A stretch of 36,578 bases of DNA, from assembly GCA_001775395.1 (NCBI GenBank), contig MEWP01000159.1:1-36578 (forward strand), written 5' to 3'. The stretch's first letter is position 1, and every line of letters begins with the position of its first letter. The notes under the pieces were generated by a model that saw only the letters and a list, made by a program, of their open reading frames with translations, had not been told where the DNA came from and did not search any database. Below are positions 3,166 to 28,303 of the stretch, one piece after another. This DNA is from a candidate division Zixibacteria bacterium RBG_16_53_22. Its GTDB lineage: Bacteria > Zixibacteria > MSB-5A5 > UBA10806. A program made the position numbers and the translations under genes.

Positions 3166-4397
3166 GATCAATTCTCAGTTCCCTGGTGATTGTTCTTATC
3201 TTATGCGCGAATTTGGCGGCCCAGGATTATCTTGACAGATTATCGAAAAGGTTTAAGCGCGAGATTCCCATTCAATTGTACGAGGGGTCAGAGGGGAGAA
3301 TTGGAGTCAGGGGAGAAGCGGTCATCGAGTGCTACCGGGGCCTGAAACTTGTGGAGATTTTCTATTTTTCGACCGATATCAAATTTCGCTATCGCAATAA
3401 TGGCATAGAGATCAGCGATGAAGACGATATCTTGACTTATGGCCTGGCAGAGGTTCGTGTCAAGCCCCGTCATGGATCGTCACTTGTGACGTTCAATGGC
3501 CGGGCCTATCGTGGCTATATTAAATGCAAGTACCAGAATTCCCCGGAAAAAGCCCTAATCCTCAACATGGTGGATATCGAGGATTATCTCCGGGGGGTCC
3601 TGCCGGCGGAAATTGGGGAAAGGGCCCCGGACGAATACGAGGCTGTCAAGGCGCAAGCCGTAGCGGCTCGAACCTACGCTGTCTGGAGGCTGACCGATAA
3701 TGAGTTCTCGGGGTATCTCTCTCCCACGGTGGCTGACCAGGTTTACACCGGGTTTGACACCGAGAAGGAGTTTCTCAGCCGGGGGATAGAGGAAACCAGG
3801 GGAGAGATAATGATATTCGAGGGCCGGCCAATCGCCGCCTTTTATCATGCTGTCTGCGGGGGGCACACCTCGCCCGTGGAGAAGATATGGCCGGAGCGCA
3901 ATCCGGCCGATTATCTTGTCGGGGCCGATGATGACACTTTTTGCACTTGGGCAAAAACCTACTCCTGGAGCGAGTCATATACTTTAGAAAGGCTAAGGGA
4001 AACGCTCATCAGGTATTTCACAGGCAAAAACGGCGCCAGGGCCAGGGATTTTGAATCGATAAACGATCTTAAGTTTGCCATTGACAAGAGGAGCGGCCGG
4101 GTGGAGATGATGGAGGTCAACACTGATGCCGGCGTGTTCCGCGAAACCAGCGACAGGATCCGCTGGGTCTTCTTAAGAGCGTCACCTGCGGGAGCGATTC
4201 TGCCCTCAACTAATTTCACGCCGCACAAGGTGGTCGTCGAAGGTAAGCTGGCAGGTCTGGAGATATCGGGTCTCGGCAATGGCCACGGGGTAGGTATGTG
4301 CCAATGCGGGGCCATCGGACGTTCGCGCGCAGGAGAGGAGTACGATAGTATCCTGAAGCATTACTATGGCCCTATCAAGCTTGCTGAATTATATTGA
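3153..4397 (+). CDS. SpoIID/LytB domain protein, exported
   Basis: SpoIID/LytB proteins cleave or help cleave denuded glycan strands; B. subtilis SpoIID is a lytic transglycosylase. A hydrophobic signal sequence is at residues 6-22, with a plausible cleavage site after LAA. The SpoIID core runs from about residue 115 to the C terminus. It includes the conserved segment EDYLRGVLPAEIGE, whose Glu lies at the expected catalytic position, and AVKAQAVAARTYA. The protein ends with the typical GNGHGVGMCQCGAIGRSRAG motif before a YYG tail. No sporulation gene is present nearby, so a role in wall remodelling or turnover is more likely. It overlaps anmK by 13 bases and could be the periplasmic source of anhydro-muropeptides for the two upstream enzymes; that link is inference. 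Confidence 0.85.
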   Translation: MSAVRSILSSLVIVLILCANLAAQDYLDRLSKRFKREIPIQLYEGSEGRIGVRGEAVIECYRGLKLVEIFYFSTDIKFRYRNNGIEISDEDDILTYGLAEVRVKPRHGSSLVTFNGRAYRGYIKCKYQNSPEKALILNMVDIEDYLRGVLPAEIGERAPDEYEAVKAQAVAARTYAVWRLTDNEFSGYLSPTVADQVYTGFDTEKEFLSRGIEETRGEIMIFEGRPIAAFYHAVCGGHTSPVEKIWPERNPADYLVGADDDTFCTWAKTYSWSESYTLERLRETLIRYFTGKNGARARDFESINDLKFAIDKRSGRVEMMEVNTDAGVFRETSDRIRWVFLRASPAGAILPSTNFTPHKVVVEGKLAGLEISGLGNGHGVGMCQCGAIGRSRAGEEYDSILKHYYGPIKLAELY

Positions 4398-5202
4398 TGC
4401 GGATGATTTTCGGTGCGACCAAAAGAGGATTCGACATATCAATCATATCAAGTTTGCGCTGATTCAGGATAGTCCGGGCTCCGGCATAAGAGGACCATAT
4501 CTGCAAAAGCTTCGGGAATTCGACCCGGATATAATCGCATTCCCGGAATATTATTTTGTTGGTCCGCCGTTCATCAATGTGACATCATCATATGTAATTC
4601 ACGACGAGACACTGGAGCGCTTGCAGAACTGGTCTCGCGAGCTGGGGTGCATCATCGTGGGTGGGACCCTGGTGGCGGACGAAGGCGGCCGGAAGTTTAA
4701 CCGGTGCTACATCTTTGATCGTGGCCGGACAGTCGGACATTACGACAAGATACATCTGTTTCGCGGCGAGGGTCAGGGGCTTTTGTCGCCGGGGACGGAG
4801 TACCGGGTATTTGAGATCGGATCAATCAGAATCGGCCTGCTTATCTGCGCCGATGCCCTTTTCCCCGATTCATTTCGCAATATCAGAGGACTTAAGCCTG
4901 ATCTGTTGTTCATACCCAATACCTCGAGATTCCGTGAGGGCGAATCGGTCGAAACGAAATTCAAGAGGGACATGGGCATTTTCGCCGCCGGCGCATCGGC
5001 CGCCGATACGATTGTGATCAAAGTAAGCGCCTCAGGAATATTGACCGGCCGCCGGCTGCAGGGCCGCAGCTTGATCGCTTTTCCAGGCAGCGTTGAATGG
5101 AGGATCGAGCCGCACAACGAGGATAAATCGGCACTGGCGCTGGCGACATCGAGCGGCGAAAAGACCAACCCCTCGCTTGACATTACAGTCTACCGCCCAT
5201 AA
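4366..5202 (+). CDS. Carbon-nitrogen (nitrilase-superfamily) hydrolase
   Basis: The Glu-Lys-Cys triad of the nitrilase/omega-amidase superfamily is visible: Glu in AFPEYYF, Lys in YDKIHLF and Cys in LLICADALF. Such enzymes hydrolyse amides, nitriles or N-carbamoyl compounds; the substrate cannot be told from sequence. The start is uncertain. The listed ATG lies 32 bases inside the SpoIID gene and has no clear ribosome-binding site, while family homology begins only at KFALIQ, about 30 residues in. An AAAAGAGGA stretch near 4420-4428 resembles a Shine-Dalgarno site, but only rare start codons (ATT, ATC) follow it in frame. Length and the distance between triad residues are normal for the family. 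Cytoplasmic, with no signal peptide. Confidence 0.8.
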   Translation: MALSSLLNYIDADDFRCDQKRIRHINHIKFALIQDSPGSGIRGPYLQKLREFDPDIIAFPEYYFVGPPFINVTSSYVIHDETLERLQNWSRELGCIIVGGTLVADEGGRKFNRCYIFDRGRTVGHYDKIHLFRGEGQGLLSPGTEYRVFEIGSIRIGLLICADALFPDSFRNIRGLKPDLLFIPNTSRFREGESVETKFKRDMGIFAAGASAADTIVIKVSASGILTGRRLQGRSLIAFPGSVEWRIEPHNEDKSALALATSSGEKTNPSLDITVYRP

Positions 5203-5212
5203 CTTGAAATAT

Positions 5213-5650
5213 ATGGTTCGTTTCAAACGATCGGGATTCAGGGTTATCGCCGTCTTGTCATTGTTGGCCCTCTTAGGCTCGGTGCTGGTATTGATTCAGC
5301 GATCCGAAAAGGCCGCGCGATTCAATATTCGCCTGCCGGGCGCCGGCGGCGCCTATAATTATCGTTACGACGAAACCAATCGAAATTCCACCGATCCGGT
5401 GATCGATTCCATGGCACTGGCGCGATCCCTCAATTTGAGTATCGCCATCGATTCCGAGAAGATCGATATCAATCAGTGCGGCTATTTCGATTTCGAGGCG
5501 CTTCCGGGGATAGGTCCGGCGTTGGCGGATAACATAATATCGTACCGTGACAGTGTCGGCAAATTCCGCAGTGTCGATGAGCTCTTGAATGTCAAAGGCA
5601 TTGGCCCGTCCAAGCTGAACCTCGTTCGGGACATGGTAGTGGCAAAATGA
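5213..5650 (+). CDS. ComEA-like helix-hairpin-helix protein, membrane anchored
   Basis: I place the start at the ATG encoding MVRFKRSGF rather than at the track's 5093, because the extra 40 residues are an out-of-frame reading of the preceding gene. The protein then has 145 residues, with one N-terminal membrane segment (about 10-27) and a short low-complexity linker. A C-terminal double helix-hairpin-helix domain carries the hairpins LPGIGPALADNII and VKGIGPSKLNLV. This is the architecture of ComEA, which binds incoming DNA at the outside of the inner membrane during transformation. The next gene is PilM-like, which fits a pilus or competence theme. No ComEC or other uptake gene is in the window, so a DNA-uptake role is inferred. 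The stop overlaps the next start by 4 bases. Confidence 0.75.
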   Translation: MVRFKRSGFRVIAVLSLLALLGSVLVLIQRSEKAARFNIRLPGAGGAYNYRYDETNRNSTDPVIDSMALARSLNLSIAIDSEKIDINQCGYFDFEALPGIGPALADNIISYRDSVGKFRSVDELLNVKGIGPSKLNLVRDMVVAK

Positions 5651-6501
5651 TTCTCGGCGTTGCCATCGAGACCGATTCTCTGCTGCTGGCCGCTCATTCC
5701 GGCCGGGACACCGAACCCCGATTCCGCACATTTACGATTAAAGGGAAAACGGTGGACGAGGGCGCTGACCACGCCGGCTCGATATGGGAGCAGGCCGGCG
5801 ACGATGCCCGGCAGTTTCTTATTCAGGCCGAACAGATAGTTTTCGCGCTGCCGGCCAGGACCTGCTATCTGAAGAGAATTAGTATCGAAAACCGGCTTAT
5901 TCGGGAAAAGCCCGATTATCTGAAATGGGTGGCCGGCAATCATCTGCCCGGGAAGCTCGACGATTATTATTTCGACTTCATTCCTCTAAGACAGAGTTTT
6001 GATGCTGCCAGAACCGAAATGCTCCTCCTCGCCACGACATCAAAGCGATATGATGAATTTTCAAGAAAATTAATCGCCGGGGAAAACCGCAATATGAAGT
6101 TCATTCCCGAGCAGATCGGCCTGGTGCAGGTAGTGGAGAAGTCGCTGAACAGCGAGGAGTTTGCACAAGCCGGAATTGTCGACTGCCGCCCAAACGGCAT
6201 CCTGGCCGTATTCGCCAGGAATAGCCGCTTTGACCATAGCCGGCTATTTAATAATTCGTCGTCTAAAAAAACCGAAATTGCTGCGGATATCGAGACATAT
6301 TTCTTGAGCCGGGCCGATTCCTCCGAGGCATTGCCCCTGGTAATCACCGGTTTTACCGGATGTTTCACAACCGGCTGGTCGCCGGTGGTCCCGGCATTCA
6401 TGGGAATACATAATCTGGAATATGCCGGCGCCTGGGGGGTGGCTGATTTTGTCATGCAGAACTTGTCTTTGCCAGGCCAGGGGACAGCGCAAGTCCGATG
6501 A
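5647..6501 (+). CDS. PilM-like (type IV pilus assembly family) protein
   Basis: I recognise this only by pattern. An early acidic strand (GVAIETDSLLLAA) takes the place of the actin-fold phosphate-1 loop. A segment like ALPARTCYLKRISIENRL is followed by an LDDYYFDFIPL stretch, which resembles PilM proteins (actin-like cytoplasmic platform of type IV pili or type II secretion). At 284 residues it is shorter than typical PilM (about 350), and I cannot see convincing second-phosphate or adenosine-binding motifs, so ATP binding may be lost. It overlaps the ComEA-like gene by 4 bases and the rsmD start by 4. No PilN, PilO or PilQ gene follows. Alternative: another GspL/PilM-like scaffold. A profile search against the PilM and GspL families would settle it. 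Confidence 0.5.
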   Translation: MILGVAIETDSLLLAAHSGRDTEPRFRTFTIKGKTVDEGADHAGSIWEQAGDDARQFLIQAEQIVFALPARTCYLKRISIENRLIREKPDYLKWVAGNHLPGKLDDYYFDFIPLRQSFDAARTEMLLLATTSKRYDEFSRKLIAGENRNMKFIPEQIGLVQVVEKSLNSEEFAQAGIVDCRPNGILAVFARNSRFDHSRLFNNSSSKKTEIAADIETYFLSRADSSEALPLVITGFTGCFTTGWSPVVPAFMGIHNLEYAGAWGVADFVMQNLSLPGQGTAQVR

Positions 6502-21628: not shown

Positions 21629-21696
21629 ATAGCTGAAAATCCTATCGCTTTTGGCCATCAGCGGCCTCATAACCGCAATTGAGGCAGGATATCGCT

Positions 21697-22917
21697 ATGA
21701 AAAACAACCGGACGATAGCCGCAACTATAATCGGCTTGATAATAATAGCCCCGGTTGCCAATGCCCAATTTTTCGAGTTGATAAGTATATGCGATTCTAT
21801 CGGTGGTTTTGATGTATTCGCCGATGAAGAATATGTATACGTAGCGGATGGCAGTTGCTTTAAAATTCTAAATATGTCTGATCCATACCATCCTTTTATA
21901 ATGAGCAGTTATCAGCTTCCGTATGATGCTACCGGCGTATTTGCCCAGTGTAATTATGCATATATTGCCATCGGAAGAAGTCTTCAGATCTTAAGCATCT
22001 CCAATCCAATCGAACCCGTGTTCGCTGGTGAATGTGCGGTCCCGGCGTGGGATCTCTGGGTCCAAAATTCTTATGCGTATGTTGTGGCGCCTGGTAGTGA
22101 TTCCTTAAGCGTAGTAAATGTTTCCAATCCGGCCGCGCCATTTATTGCTGGGGCCTGCACCACGACTTTCCCTTTTGATATACATGTAATTAACAAATAT
22201 GCTTATATAGCCGATTATCATGGGGGTTTGAAAATCGTGGATGTTTCTAATCCCACCAATCCCGTAATCGTGGGCCATTGCCAGACACCCGGGACTGCGC
22301 ATGGCGTGTATGTTTCCGGAAATTTGGCTTTCCTGGGCGCCGGGAATCACGGTATGCAAATAGTCGACGTCTCCCAACCATCGAATCCAATTCGTGTGGG
22401 CAGTTACATCGAATATCCTTTCGGCCATGTGACCGGTTCGTATGCGGTGGGCAACGTCGGCATTATTGTTCAACCATCGTTAAAAGCAATTGATGCATCG
22501 GACCCCCAACATCCCGTATTGCTGGAGTATCTTCATCCCGTCGGTGGATACGCCATACATGGTGAAGGAGAATATGTATACACCGCATCGAGCGCGCTGT
22601 GTATTTTGCGGATCAATACAACCGGGGTAAGCGAAAACCATGCGCCACCCGATGCTTTTACAATCACCTCCACATACCCCAACCCCTTCAACAGCCAAAT
22701 GCGAATTGAATTTGAATTGCCCGCGGAGTCACCGGTATCGGTGTACGTTTATGATGTTTTGGGAAAGCCGATTGAGGAGATTGGCGATAATGCGATATTG
22801 CCATCGGGATCCAATTCGATCACCTGGAATCCGGGCCGGTTACCCTCGGGGATTTACCTTCTGCGGCTTAGGGCGGGCGATTATTTTAAATCATGGAAAG
22901 TGACGCTACTGAAATAG
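21697..22917 (+). CDS. Secreted LVIVD-repeat beta-propeller with C-terminal T9SS-type sorting domain
   Basis: The start is set at ATG 21697, which gives a clean signal peptide (MKNNRTIAATIIGL... cleaved after ANA), instead of the TTG at 21679. The mature protein has about six or seven LVIVD-type repeats, recognisable by recurring YVYVADG...LKIVDVSNPTNPVIVG patterns, expected to form a beta-propeller. The last 85 residues, from TYPNPFNSQMRIEFELP to SGIYLLRLRAG, match the Por/type IX (or FlgD-Ig-like) C-terminal domain that directs surface attachment or secretion. The gene is AT-richer than its neighbours (one 60-base stretch counts 40% GC against 57% in uvrB) and is flanked by repeats, so it may be an acquired cassette. 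The ligand is unknown. Confidence 0.85.
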   Translation: MKNNRTIAATIIGLIIIAPVANAQFFELISICDSIGGFDVFADEEYVYVADGSCFKILNMSDPYHPFIMSSYQLPYDATGVFAQCNYAYIAIGRSLQILSISNPIEPVFAGECAVPAWDLWVQNSYAYVVAPGSDSLSVVNVSNPAAPFIAGACTTTFPFDIHVINKYAYIADYHGGLKIVDVSNPTNPVIVGHCQTPGTAHGVYVSGNLAFLGAGNHGMQIVDVSQPSNPIRVGSYIEYPFGHVTGSYAVGNVGIIVQPSLKAIDASDPQHPVLLEYLHPVGGYAIHGEGEYVYTASSALCILRINTTGVSENHAPPDAFTITSTYPNPFNSQMRIEFELPAESPVSVYVYDVLGKPIEEIGDNAILPSGSNSITWNPGRLPSGIYLLRLRAGDYFKSWKVTLLK

Positions 22918-25811: not shown

Positions 25812-25975
25812 GGCCACTGACAGAATCTGACAGTGGCCCATTTTATATTTCATGCAGTTCTTGCTTTGTGGACATTCAATGTGTTATTATTATGGTTGCT
25901 ACCTGAAGGGGCAGACGAATTTGCCGTTTGACCGGCAATCGAAGCCGGAATTAATTAGGCAGAGTTACCAGGTAG
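25812..25975 (+). promoter_or_regulatory. Hairpin-rich leader upstream of the CPPYC cassette
   Basis: GGCCACTG-N11-CAGTGGCC (25812-25838) contains the direct repeat CTGACAG. Further on, CTACCTG (25899-25905) pairs with CAGGTAG (25969-25975) and encloses the small hairpin TTGCCG-TTTGAC-CGGCAA (25921-25938). A TATTAT near 25885-25893 could be a -10 box, but its -35 is weak. The enclosed structure would then lie in the 5' leader, about 20 bases before the AAGGAG ribosome-binding site. It matches no riboswitch I know. The rest of 25654-26008 holds nothing I can support. Confidence 0.45.
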
Positions 25976-26008
25976 AAATCGTTCACACTTTAATCAAAAG
26001 GAGATCGT

Positions 26009-26329
26009 ATGCAGTTTACAGGCCAAGAGAATCATTCGATCGACCTCGATGACGCGGCCAAGATGACAGCAAATTACAGGAATGCTCACGAGCCGGGCGC
26101 GTTATTGGGAGGATATTTCAGCCTGGAGGGGATCAAGAAAATCCTCGATCAGAGCAATTGCGTGGGAATAAGGATTTACAATGCGCTTAGCGACGACGGT
26201 GATGAGCATTTTGTTCTGGTGGGGGTGAAAAGCGATGGTGAGGATTTGCACGGTGGCGAGATCGCCGAGATTGAATACCAGTGCCCGCCATATTGCCCGA
26301 CGGCCTCACCATTAAACGGCACCGCCTAA
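26009..26329 (+). CDS. Small protein with C-terminal CPPYCP..SPLN motif
   Basis: Function is unknown. The 106-residue protein begins with a helical segment (IDLDDAAKMTANYRN), then GGYFSLEGIKKILDQSNCVGIRIYNALSDDGDEHFVLVGVKSDGEDL, a likely alpha-beta fold. It ends QCPPYCPTASPLNGTA. From memory, similar short proteins ending in CPPxC...SPLN are common in Bacteroidetes, next to membrane proteins or sensor kinases; this is not verified here. It has no signal peptide. The AAGGAG ribosome-binding site is strong. The stop touches the next ATG, so it is coupled to the membrane protein. Cys51, Cys92 and Cys96 could bind metal or form disulfides. The overlapping track ORF at 25852 is rejected. Confidence 0.8.
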   Translation: MQFTGQENHSIDLDDAAKMTANYRNAHEPGALLGGYFSLEGIKKILDQSNCVGIRIYNALSDDGDEHFVLVGVKSDGEDLHGGEIAEIEYQCPPYCPTASPLNGTA

Positions 26330-26956
26330 ATGAGTGATCTGTTTTACCCGGTGCTCTATGCGACTACGGCCTCGTCGGCGCTGCCTGTGGCGGCCGGATT
26401 TGCGTTCTATCGTCGTGCCAGGCTCGATACCAAGATTCTGCTGGCCCTTTTCATCTTGATTCTGGCAATCGATTTCTATTACCTTTATTGCGCCTGGCGA
26501 CAATCCAGCGCCAATTGGATACATCATTTCTATCTGCCGGTCGAATATGCGGCTCTGGGGATAGTCATCTCGACCTGGCAGGCCAGGCTGATCGAGAAGA
26601 AGGTCATTCTCTCGAGCGTCGTCTTGTTTACTCTGCTTTGCGCCTGGTATATCATCGGCGTTCAAGATTGGACCAGCAGCAGCGATTTCACGGCCTCGGT
26701 GGCTTGCGCGCTTTTCGTGGGTATGGCCTCCTACACGCTGATCGGGATTGAACGGCGGCAGGCCGGTGCGCTTCTCAAGGATTACCGGTTTTGGTTCCTC
26801 ATCGGCCTGCTGATCTATTCATCGGGAAACCTGGCTTATTTCGCCTTCTTTCGCCGATTTGTCTCTTATTACCTATGGGCGGGCCATAATCTGCTTAATA
26901 TCGTTGCTAACGTCTGTTACACCGTGGGATTCGTATGTCAAGCTCGCTGGGAATGA
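26330..26956 (+). CDS. Multi-pass membrane protein of unknown family
   Basis: The 208 residues contain about six or seven hydrophobic segments, with few charged residues inside them. Polar or aromatic patches such as FYYLYCAWRQSSANWIHHFYLPVEYAALG and YLWAGHNLLNIVANVCYTVGF recur between them. The layout recalls small 7-helix sensory or transport proteins, but I recognise no family and no catalytic motif. It starts immediately after the stop of the small CPPYC protein. It overlaps the PAS-LuxR gene downstream by 22 bases (or 4, if that gene uses its second ATG). The tight order suggests it senses or presents a signal to the other two products. Confidence 0.75.
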   Translation: MSDLFYPVLYATTASSALPVAAGFAFYRRARLDTKILLALFILILAIDFYYLYCAWRQSSANWIHHFYLPVEYAALGIVISTWQARLIEKKVILSSVVLFTLLCAWYIIGVQDWTSSSDFTASVACALFVGMASYTLIGIERRQAGALLKDYRFWFLIGLLIYSSGNLAYFAFFRRFVSYYLWAGHNLLNIVANVCYTVGFVCQARWE

Positions 26957-27843
26957 TCTGGGGTGTCGTGATCGTCACGCTCGCGCTCCTGGTTTTGAGC
27001 GCGGGCATAGTCATGAGCTTGATAATCCATACCAGGAAAATGCGGGAGTCGGAGCAACGCTTTCGCCTGCTTTTCGAGCGCGCCTTCGACTCTATCATCC
27101 TGGCTGACGAAAGCGGTGTCATACTGGATACCAACCAGGCTACCTGCGAGCTGTTGGGCCAGGAAAAGCCCGATCTTCTTGGCCAACCCATATTCAACTA
27201 TTTGTTCGAGGAGGATACCGGCCGATTTCAAAAGGCAATGAAGAAGGCCCTCTCCCAGGGCAGCGAAATGGCTGGAGAACTCCTGTTGAGAAATAAATCC
27301 GGCGCAAAACTTTATGTCGAGGGTGTGGTCGGGTACTTCGCATTTCTCGAAACCGATTATCTCATAATCAGTTTCAGGGATCTAACGGAGCGGATGGAGG
27401 CCTCCGAGGCCCTCAAAACGGAACGTCGCGTTCTCTATGAGAAAAATGTGGCCCTCAGAGAGGTCTTGCAGCATATCGAGGAAGAGAAGACAGAGGCAAG
27501 AAAGAATATCGCGCAAAGGATTGATCAAGTCATCTTGCCCCTTGTCAAGAGGATAGGCGCAGCCAAGGATACTATCAACGAGCATTACTACCACCTGCTC
27601 GTGGACGAGCTTAAGAAGCTCTCAGGCTTCAGCGGCGGGGCCTCCAGCCTTTATTACAAGCTATCTCCCCGAGAAATCGAAATCTGCGACCTGATAAAAA
27701 TGGGAGCTACGACCAAGGAGATCGCGAAAACCCTGAATATCTCGATAACCACCGTTAACAAGCATCGGGAGCGAATCAGAAACAGGCTTGATATTTCCAG
27801 GAAAGATGTCAATTTGACAGTTTTCCTGCAAAATTTGGAGTGA
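26935..27843 (+). CDS. Membrane-tethered PAS-LuxR transcription regulator
   Basis: One membrane helix lies at about residues 8-30. A PAS domain follows (40-150; FDSIILADESGVILDTNQATCELLG is the usual start), then a coiled-coil linker (155-230), and a C-terminal LuxR/FixJ helix-turn-helix (243-300; LSPREIEICDLIKMGATTKEIAKTLNISITTVNKHRERIRNRL). There is no kinase domain and no phospho-receiver, so this is a one-component, membrane-bound regulator. The PAS domain could sense a small ligand or redox state, or interact with the neighbouring membrane protein. The start is either 26935 or ATG 26953, which overlaps the preceding stop as ATGA and still keeps the membrane helix. DNA targets are unknown; its own operon is a reasonable guess. 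Confidence 0.85.
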   Translation: MSSSLGMIWGVVIVTLALLVLSAGIVMSLIIHTRKMRESEQRFRLLFERAFDSIILADESGVILDTNQATCELLGQEKPDLLGQPIFNYLFEEDTGRFQKAMKKALSQGSEMAGELLLRNKSGAKLYVEGVVGYFAFLETDYLIISFRDLTERMEASEALKTERRVLYEKNVALREVLQHIEEEKTEARKNIAQRIDQVILPLVKRIGAAKDTINEHYYHLLVDELKKLSGFSGGASSLYYKLSPREIEICDLIKMGATTKEIAKTLNISITTVNKHRERIRNRLDISRKDVNLTVFLQNLE

Positions 27844-27949: not shown

Positions 27950-28303
27950 ATGAGCAAGTCAGAGCGCCTTATTTTCATTCTATCACTTCTTCGTAGCAGC
28001 AAGTATTTGAGAGCCAAAGACTTGGCCCTAAAATGCGGTGTCAGCGAGCGCACCATTTACCGCGATATCATCTCCATATCCGGCATTAACATCCCCATAT
28101 ATTATGAAAATGGGTACAGGCTGCTCAATCAGGAATTCATGCCGCCGGTAAATTTCACCTCTTCCGAGGCCAATTTCCTGGTTACTTTGCTGTTGCCCCG
28201 GGTGAAGTACCATCGCAAGAATGCCCATAGGATTGCCGAGCGCATCCTGGACAAACTCGAGGCTTGCCGAACCCCGGAGCAACCGGTAAATGCCGCCTGG
28301 TAA
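27950..28303 (+). CDS. Short HTH protein, YafY-like N-terminal part without WYL domain
   Basis: The N-terminal half is a helix-turn-helix of the HTH_11 type (IFILSLLRSSKYLRAKDLALKCGVSERTIYRDIISISGINIPIYYENGYRLL), as in DeoR/YafY regulators. YafY-family proteins continue for about 200 more residues with a WYL ligand-binding domain. Here the protein ends at residue 117 after a short helical stretch, so the sensing part is missing. The ribosome-binding site is poor. It could be a decayed regulator or a stand-alone DNA-binding protein. It lies 106 bases after the PAS-LuxR gene and converges with yjbQ. Confidence 0.7.
   Translation: MSKSERLIFILSLLRSSKYLRAKDLALKCGVSERTIYRDIISISGINIPIYYENGYRLLNQEFMPPVNFTSSEANFLVTLLLPRVKYHRKNAHRIAERILDKLEACRTPEQPVNAAW

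Follow-up and report, generated by a model that had tools for sequence, protein, structure and literature searches.

A small CPPYC-tailed protein and a seven-helix membrane protein as a constant gene pair with exchangeable LuxR-type outputs: a putative membrane signalling module

The window, i.e., the whole stretch of DNA analysed here, comprises 36,578 nucleotides (G000:C159:1-36578) of a 3.86-Mb genome from the candidate division Zixibacteria. At 26009-27843 on the + strand it carries three genes, here named A, B and C, whose coding frames were confirmed by the ORF list and by reading of the sequence; ORF calls are mechanical (longest frame), so that some starts are uncertain. Gene A (26009..26329, +) encodes a soluble protein of 106 aa with the core motif ILxQxxCxGIRIY and is preceded by a Shine-Dalgarno sequence, AAGGAG, read at 25998..26003 (+). 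Gene B (26330..26956, +) encodes a 208-aa seven-helix membrane protein with a predicted outside N-terminus and inside C-terminus, and gene C (26935..27843, +) encodes a 302-aa membrane-anchored PAS-LuxR regulator with PAS and GerE matches. The start of B is the base right after the stop of A (TAA followed directly by ATG, 0 nt spacing), while C starts inside B with an overlap of 22 nt. This confirms a preliminary description of the locus, made from the letters alone, which had reported three genes with touching or overlapping ends.

The 22-nt overlap was considered as a conserved junction, and 20 junctions of B with a kinase gene share this length. We nevertheless read it as coincidence, since the overlap is 37 nt long in Zixibacteria relatives such as L042 and L020. 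Two further genes of the window are worth recording. Just 3' of C, positions 27950-28303 (+) encode a 117-aa protein with HTH_11 as its sole domain, possibly a truncated regulator. Positions 21679-22917 (+) encode an LVIVD-repeat protein whose C-terminal sorting domain is of the Por_Secre_tail type; it may be a substrate of type IX secretion.

The preliminary description had also spoken of a hairpin-rich leader, and here it did not hold: the 154-nt leader of A folds no better than its shuffles (z = -0.79) and reaches the gathering score of no Rfam family. Between the divergent SDR gene and A lies a 27-bp dyad, GGCCACTGACAGAATCTGACAGTGGCC (25812..25838), a candidate operator or terminator. Its arms are complementary at 12 of 13 positions, which goes beyond chance, as none of 300 dinucleotide shuffles reached it. 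The dyad was rejected as a family-wide operator: none was seen in the leaders of seven relatives' cassettes, and with one copy in the whole genome it is private to the genome of the window.

Protein A ends in ...CPPYCPTASPLNGTA, and the CPPYC motif first noticed near its C-terminus is indeed present in the translation of gene A (residues 92-96, codons at 26282..26296, +), with its cysteines and Pro-Pro conserved in most relatives. No family of Pfam or NCBIfam matched A at E<=1, a tblastn search of plasmids with A gave no match, and a PDB sequence search returned no family for A or B. Weak matches to DUF6968 occur in 8 of 61 A members, the best at 6e-4. The structure model of A describes a small alpha/beta protein (pLDDT 91) with no fold match in the PDB and no viral counterpart. 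The A family is one with a confidently predicted fold that has no counterpart among solved structures. An export signal was seen in none of 58 close A members; here and below, signal peptides and topology were judged by simple hydropathy and charge counts rather than by a dedicated predictor.

Two A paralogues occur without B, one each in G000 and G004; both are devoid of the CPPxC motif and adjoin Ser/Thr kinases. In the window's own genome (contig C69), the A-domain paralogue at L025:6397-6714(-) lies directly 5' of a Ser/Thr kinase-TPR gene (4020-6272(-)), and the same arrangement is found in G004 (L024:6400-6687(-) and 4036-6282(-)). The two kinases share 61% identity over 740 aa.

Protein B likewise matched no family of Pfam or NCBIfam at E<=1. 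Its structure model (pLDDT 94) consists of seven helices, in good agreement with the multi-pass membrane protein proposed earlier, and charge counts place the N-terminus outside and the C-terminus inside. A fold search had GPCRs and rhodopsins as top matches, with probability 1.00 but an E-value of 0.035 and a TMq of 0.58, i.e., below significance. No 7TM-sensor family of Pfam was matched among 55 B proteins, no protease or exporter family of Pfam by B, and no transporter or enzyme family by A or B. One B from the Zixibacteria (L070) carries a C-terminal tail resembling a LuxR HTH (GerE E 0.0016), which suggests a fusion of B with an output. Near this extended B (L070:2770-3597, the same locus as L023, G008:C228), the opposite strand holds fragments of a PAS-LuxR gene. 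Tandem B genes, two or three after a single A, were observed at L087:8322-10566, L088:8321-9657, L154:2888-5362 and L155:2517-3938. Across 63 loci, the mean pairwise identity is 34% for A, 18% for B, 26% for the kinase and 34% for the regulator; B appears to be the fast-changing part, as would be expected for a receptor.

Protein C combines a membrane helix (residues 13-31, 26971..27027, +, from hydropathy), a PAS domain (about residues 42-152, 27058..27390, +; Pfam PAS, E 1.9e-12, and PAS_9) and a LuxR/GerE DNA-binding domain (residues 243-288, 27661..27798, +; Pfam GerE, E 6.5e-12). Searches of Pfam and NCBIfam found neither a kinase nor a receiver domain in C. The architecture given in the preliminary description is hence borne out, and C belongs to the PAS-LuxR class, defined by a PAS domain followed by a C-terminal GerE HTH with no kinase or receiver.

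The preliminary description had staked its reading on the three families occurring together elsewhere, and they do. By single-sequence and profile search, A and B are present in the identical 9 of 58 genomes of the window's class. They are neighbours in these nine genomes; in G002, A is split over two contig ends, and in G001, a member of the window's genus, the reading frame of B is interrupted and split into two ORFs. As many as 31 of the 58 genomes have PAS-LuxR matches to C, and it is the membrane-anchored form that tracks the pair: it was found in 8 of the 9 A-B genomes vs. 0 of the 49 others (Fisher 5e-9), where anchored denotes a match that includes C's membrane helix and starts at residue 9 or earlier, a cut set after the list had been seen. 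G002 retains an anchored C on another contig, unlinked from A-B, and has none directly after B. G033 has a multi-PAS-LuxR protein of 980 aa as its output. A solitary B exists as well (G033:C228, L219). A HisKA_3 kinase is absent from the window and from the Zixibacteria cassettes with A-B.

Beyond the Zixibacteria, a scan of 84,980 species genomes for A returned 57 loci, mostly from Bacteroidota, with few from Ignavibacteriota, Chlorobiota, Gemmatimonadota and Zixibacteria. B is the next gene after 74 of 76 non-Zixibacteria A genes, counted over the scan loci, phylum samples and extra copies with enough downstream contig. At one of the two exceptions (L080), a 201-aa protein that the B profile does not recognise takes the position of B. 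At the other (L097:7156-11748), the A match lies in a long protein of 246 aa, apparently a tandem, which stands between a LuxR response regulator and a HisKA_3 kinase of the propeller type (propeller/Y_Y_Y/HisKA_3). Such a recurrence of A-B in distant phyla means that the three-gene observation is not due to chance.

What follows B differs between the phyla. A HisKA_3-type kinase comes next in 62 of 68 non-Zixibacteria loci, mostly with a LuxR response regulator behind it. In a wider set of 44 products encoded after B, 36 match HisKA_3 and 35 HATPase_c, and the Zixibacteria members among them show PAS and GerE matches instead. The relatives' response regulators have a receiver and a LuxR HTH (e.g., L047), whereas C has GerE and no receiver. 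An intermediate was found in L049 (Ignavibacteria), where PAS, GAF and HisKA_3 follow a single membrane helix in one protein. A-B is thus the constant unit and its LuxR-type outputs are interchangeable, a two-component pair elsewhere and a TM-PAS-LuxR protein in Zixibacteria.

As a check independent of A, a B-profile search was run on 118 Bacteroidota genomes, a sample that includes two A carriers known beforehand (G070, G064). The A profile was found in 11 genomes and the B profile in 22, all 11 included. A combined A+B tree broadly follows the phyla, and the distances of A and B correlate (Mantel r 0.48); this value is compatible with shared descent and is therefore not taken as proof of contact. 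One genome (G066; L071, L129-L132) holds five A-B copies, and at three of them (L071, L130, L131) LuxR-like regulators lie nearby 5' of A, with no kinase 3' of B.

Each of 20 further B loci has a kinase-profile match downstream, and nearly all have a LuxR response regulator. Most of them also have a preceding gene, often too diverged for the A profile, in which the tail is kept. A Pro-Pro or CPxxC within the last 30 residues occurs in 93 of 100 proteins directly 5' of B vs. 4.6% of other long ORFs. Among the 16 such proteins missed by the A profile, about three of which look like spurious neighbours, 14 have this tail. Profile comparison found one divergent group weakly homologous to A (E 3e-4 but probability 39%). 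Of 17 divergent A-like proteins, 8 begin with a lipoprotein-type or otherwise hydrophobic N-terminus, as against 0 of 58 close A. The genes 5' of B at L197, L201, L202, L206, L208 and L210 combine a lipoprotein-type N-terminus with a Pro-Pro or CPxxC C-terminal tail. Judged from their N-termini, A-like proteins can apparently occupy either side of the membrane, which is the main unexplained point. If the divergent proteins are true equivalents, the face of B that A meets must differ between systems.

On balance, we think it probable that A, B and C form one membrane signalling module, with B as receptor or transducer, C as dedicated output and A as a modulator acting through its tail. The preliminary description had proposed a single signalling cassette read at the membrane. 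Co-occurrence and the anchored C agree with this; the invariant core, however, is A-B and not A-B-C, because a TM-HisKA_3 kinase and a LuxR response regulator fill the place of C outside the Zixibacteria. We infer the direction of signal flow, the physical contacts, the action of A through its tail and the target genes as follows. B would be a seven-helix inner-membrane receptor or transducer with no output domain of its own, taking a membrane or periplasmic signal, and the single N-terminal helix of C may adjoin it. A change in B would then pass through the PAS domain and helical linker of C to a LuxR-type DNA-binding dimer and switch transcription, possibly of its own operon among other targets. 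A would be a soluble accessory that tunes B, or the complex of B and C, in its sensitivity or state; the Cys-Pro-Pro-x-Cys tail at the C-terminus of A would serve as the contact or the switch. In Zixibacteria, C would replace kinase and response regulator, giving a membrane-held one-component switch.

Two points bear on B as input. Like C, the kinases encoded downstream of B generally carry a single N-terminal helix and lack a periplasmic domain, which makes B the likely input. Outputs with no sensor domain beside a multi-pass protein with no output likewise suggest this role. As regards A, the tail persists better than any other feature of the gene that precedes B, which makes it the best candidate for a contact with B or the output; the absence of CPPxC from the paralogues that have no B fits this idea. 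Speaking against the module are the hydrophobic N-termini of divergent A-like proteins, the A members that have B but no tail, the solitary B and the absence of a C after B in G002.

Alternatively, C or the pair of kinase and regulator could be just a local controller of expression, and A and B the regulated effector, e.g., a membrane enzyme or transporter together with its soluble partner; we find this reading unlikely and still take it seriously. The strict adjacency of A and B, their 0-nt junction and the 22-nt overlap of B and C would be expected here too. A is better conserved than B, which is unusual for a mere sensor accessory, and the divergent A proteins may be exported. On the other hand, neither C nor the kinases that accompany A-B possess a sensor domain, one B (L070) bears an HTH-like tail, and neither A nor B matches a transporter or enzyme family. 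Moreover, the anchoring of C tracks A-B, and a mere controller need not sit in the membrane.

A further variant may also be conceived: the body of A would sense the signal and its CPPxC tail would serve as a protein-borne ligand that gates the seven-helix B, with a two- or one-component LuxR output. We consider this rather improbable.

The tail cysteines could instead make A a metal or thiol sensor, in which B would pass on to the output the state of the CPPxC pair, set by metal binding or by disulfide formation. A CX3C metal-binding pair is known from Sco and CuA proteins. Within 53 close A members the two tail cysteines are indeed kept or lost jointly (both in 46, neither in 7, a single one in 0). 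Among the 83 A of a wider set, the motif is present in 70 and Cys is absent from 8; the remaining 5 are atypical, and two of these (L137, L209) have a single tail Cys. The state of the cysteines changed at least 9 times on the B tree, and where they are lost, Pro-Pro usually stays (SPPY, TPPT, KTPPY). Some A members that have B lack the tail (L094, L096, L162). The loss of Cys in several lineages with Pro-Pro usually kept argues against an obligatory metal site. The third cysteine, C51, is not invariant outside the pattern-selected set. Its apparent invariance was dismissed as partly a selection effect of the search pattern: the loci were chosen by short peptide patterns and an A-derived profile, which inflates the conservation inside A, that of C51 especially. 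As the model of A, in addition, has no fold match to a metal protein, we rate a metal or thiol sensor as quite improbable.

Finally, the operon of small protein, membrane protein, kinase and regulator resembles the gene content of Agr, and some divergent A proteins have export signals; that A serves as precursor to a peptide signal for export, which B processes, exports or receives and to which the regulator responds, is nonetheless highly improbable, given that A is a confidently modelled folded protein more conserved than B, that no close A has an export signal, that the C-terminal part of A is conserved and not hypervariable, and that B matches no protease or exporter family.

If A, B and C act as one membrane signalling module, as we prefer, the pair A-B would supply an input to sensor kinases that themselves lack a sensor domain. 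It also presents a natural experiment, in which some phyla couple A-B to a two-component pair and another couples it to one membrane-bound regulator. PAS-LuxR regulators, HisKA_3/LuxR pairs, 7TM sensors and accessory membrane proteins are each of a known kind. The A family, the B family, the coupling of A with B and the exchange of a two- for a one-component output are apparently undescribed: they have no precedent in the libraries and papers searched, and no description of the motif or the cassette was found in the open-licence literature.

C has parallels in the PAS-LuxR regulators CfaR and PteF, which we take to be soluble regulators of antibiotic or phytotoxin clusters in Streptomyces. C differs from them by its one-helix membrane anchor and its link to a seven-helix partner. 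As in C, a PAS domain and a C-terminal LuxR domain are found in Streptomyces CfaR (PMC4380410) and PteF (PMC9394381), with no kinase or receiver. C has no periplasmic domain and combines a cytosolic PAS domain with a C-terminal LuxR HTH; CadC, in contrast, senses through a periplasmic domain and binds DNA with its N-terminal domain. C resembles CadC-type receptors (PMC7888679) in that a single helix holds a DNA-binding regulator in the membrane. For B, the closest parallel is a seven-helix sensor feeding a signalling output, as in 7TMR-DISM proteins (PMC1592074, PMC6107284) and the LytS-type BtsS (PMC10653868). These are fused to their output in one chain, whereas B stands alone except for the HTH-like tail of L070.

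For the module as a whole, a comparison can be made with UhpC-UhpB-UhpA and the similar LiaF-LiaS-LiaR. In the latter system, an accessory membrane protein controls a HisKA_3-type kinase with a LuxR-type response regulator (PMC7191749, PMC3543457). The A-B-kinase-regulator form of the Bacteroidota likewise encodes a membrane protein beside such a kinase and response regulator, and by analogy B, as the membrane protein beside the output, may exert a putative accessory control. It differs in that B is a seven-helix protein with no family match and that the soluble A is a fourth component. The cassette of the window departs further from LiaFSR, as kinase and receiver are absent and a single PAS-LuxR protein stands in their place.
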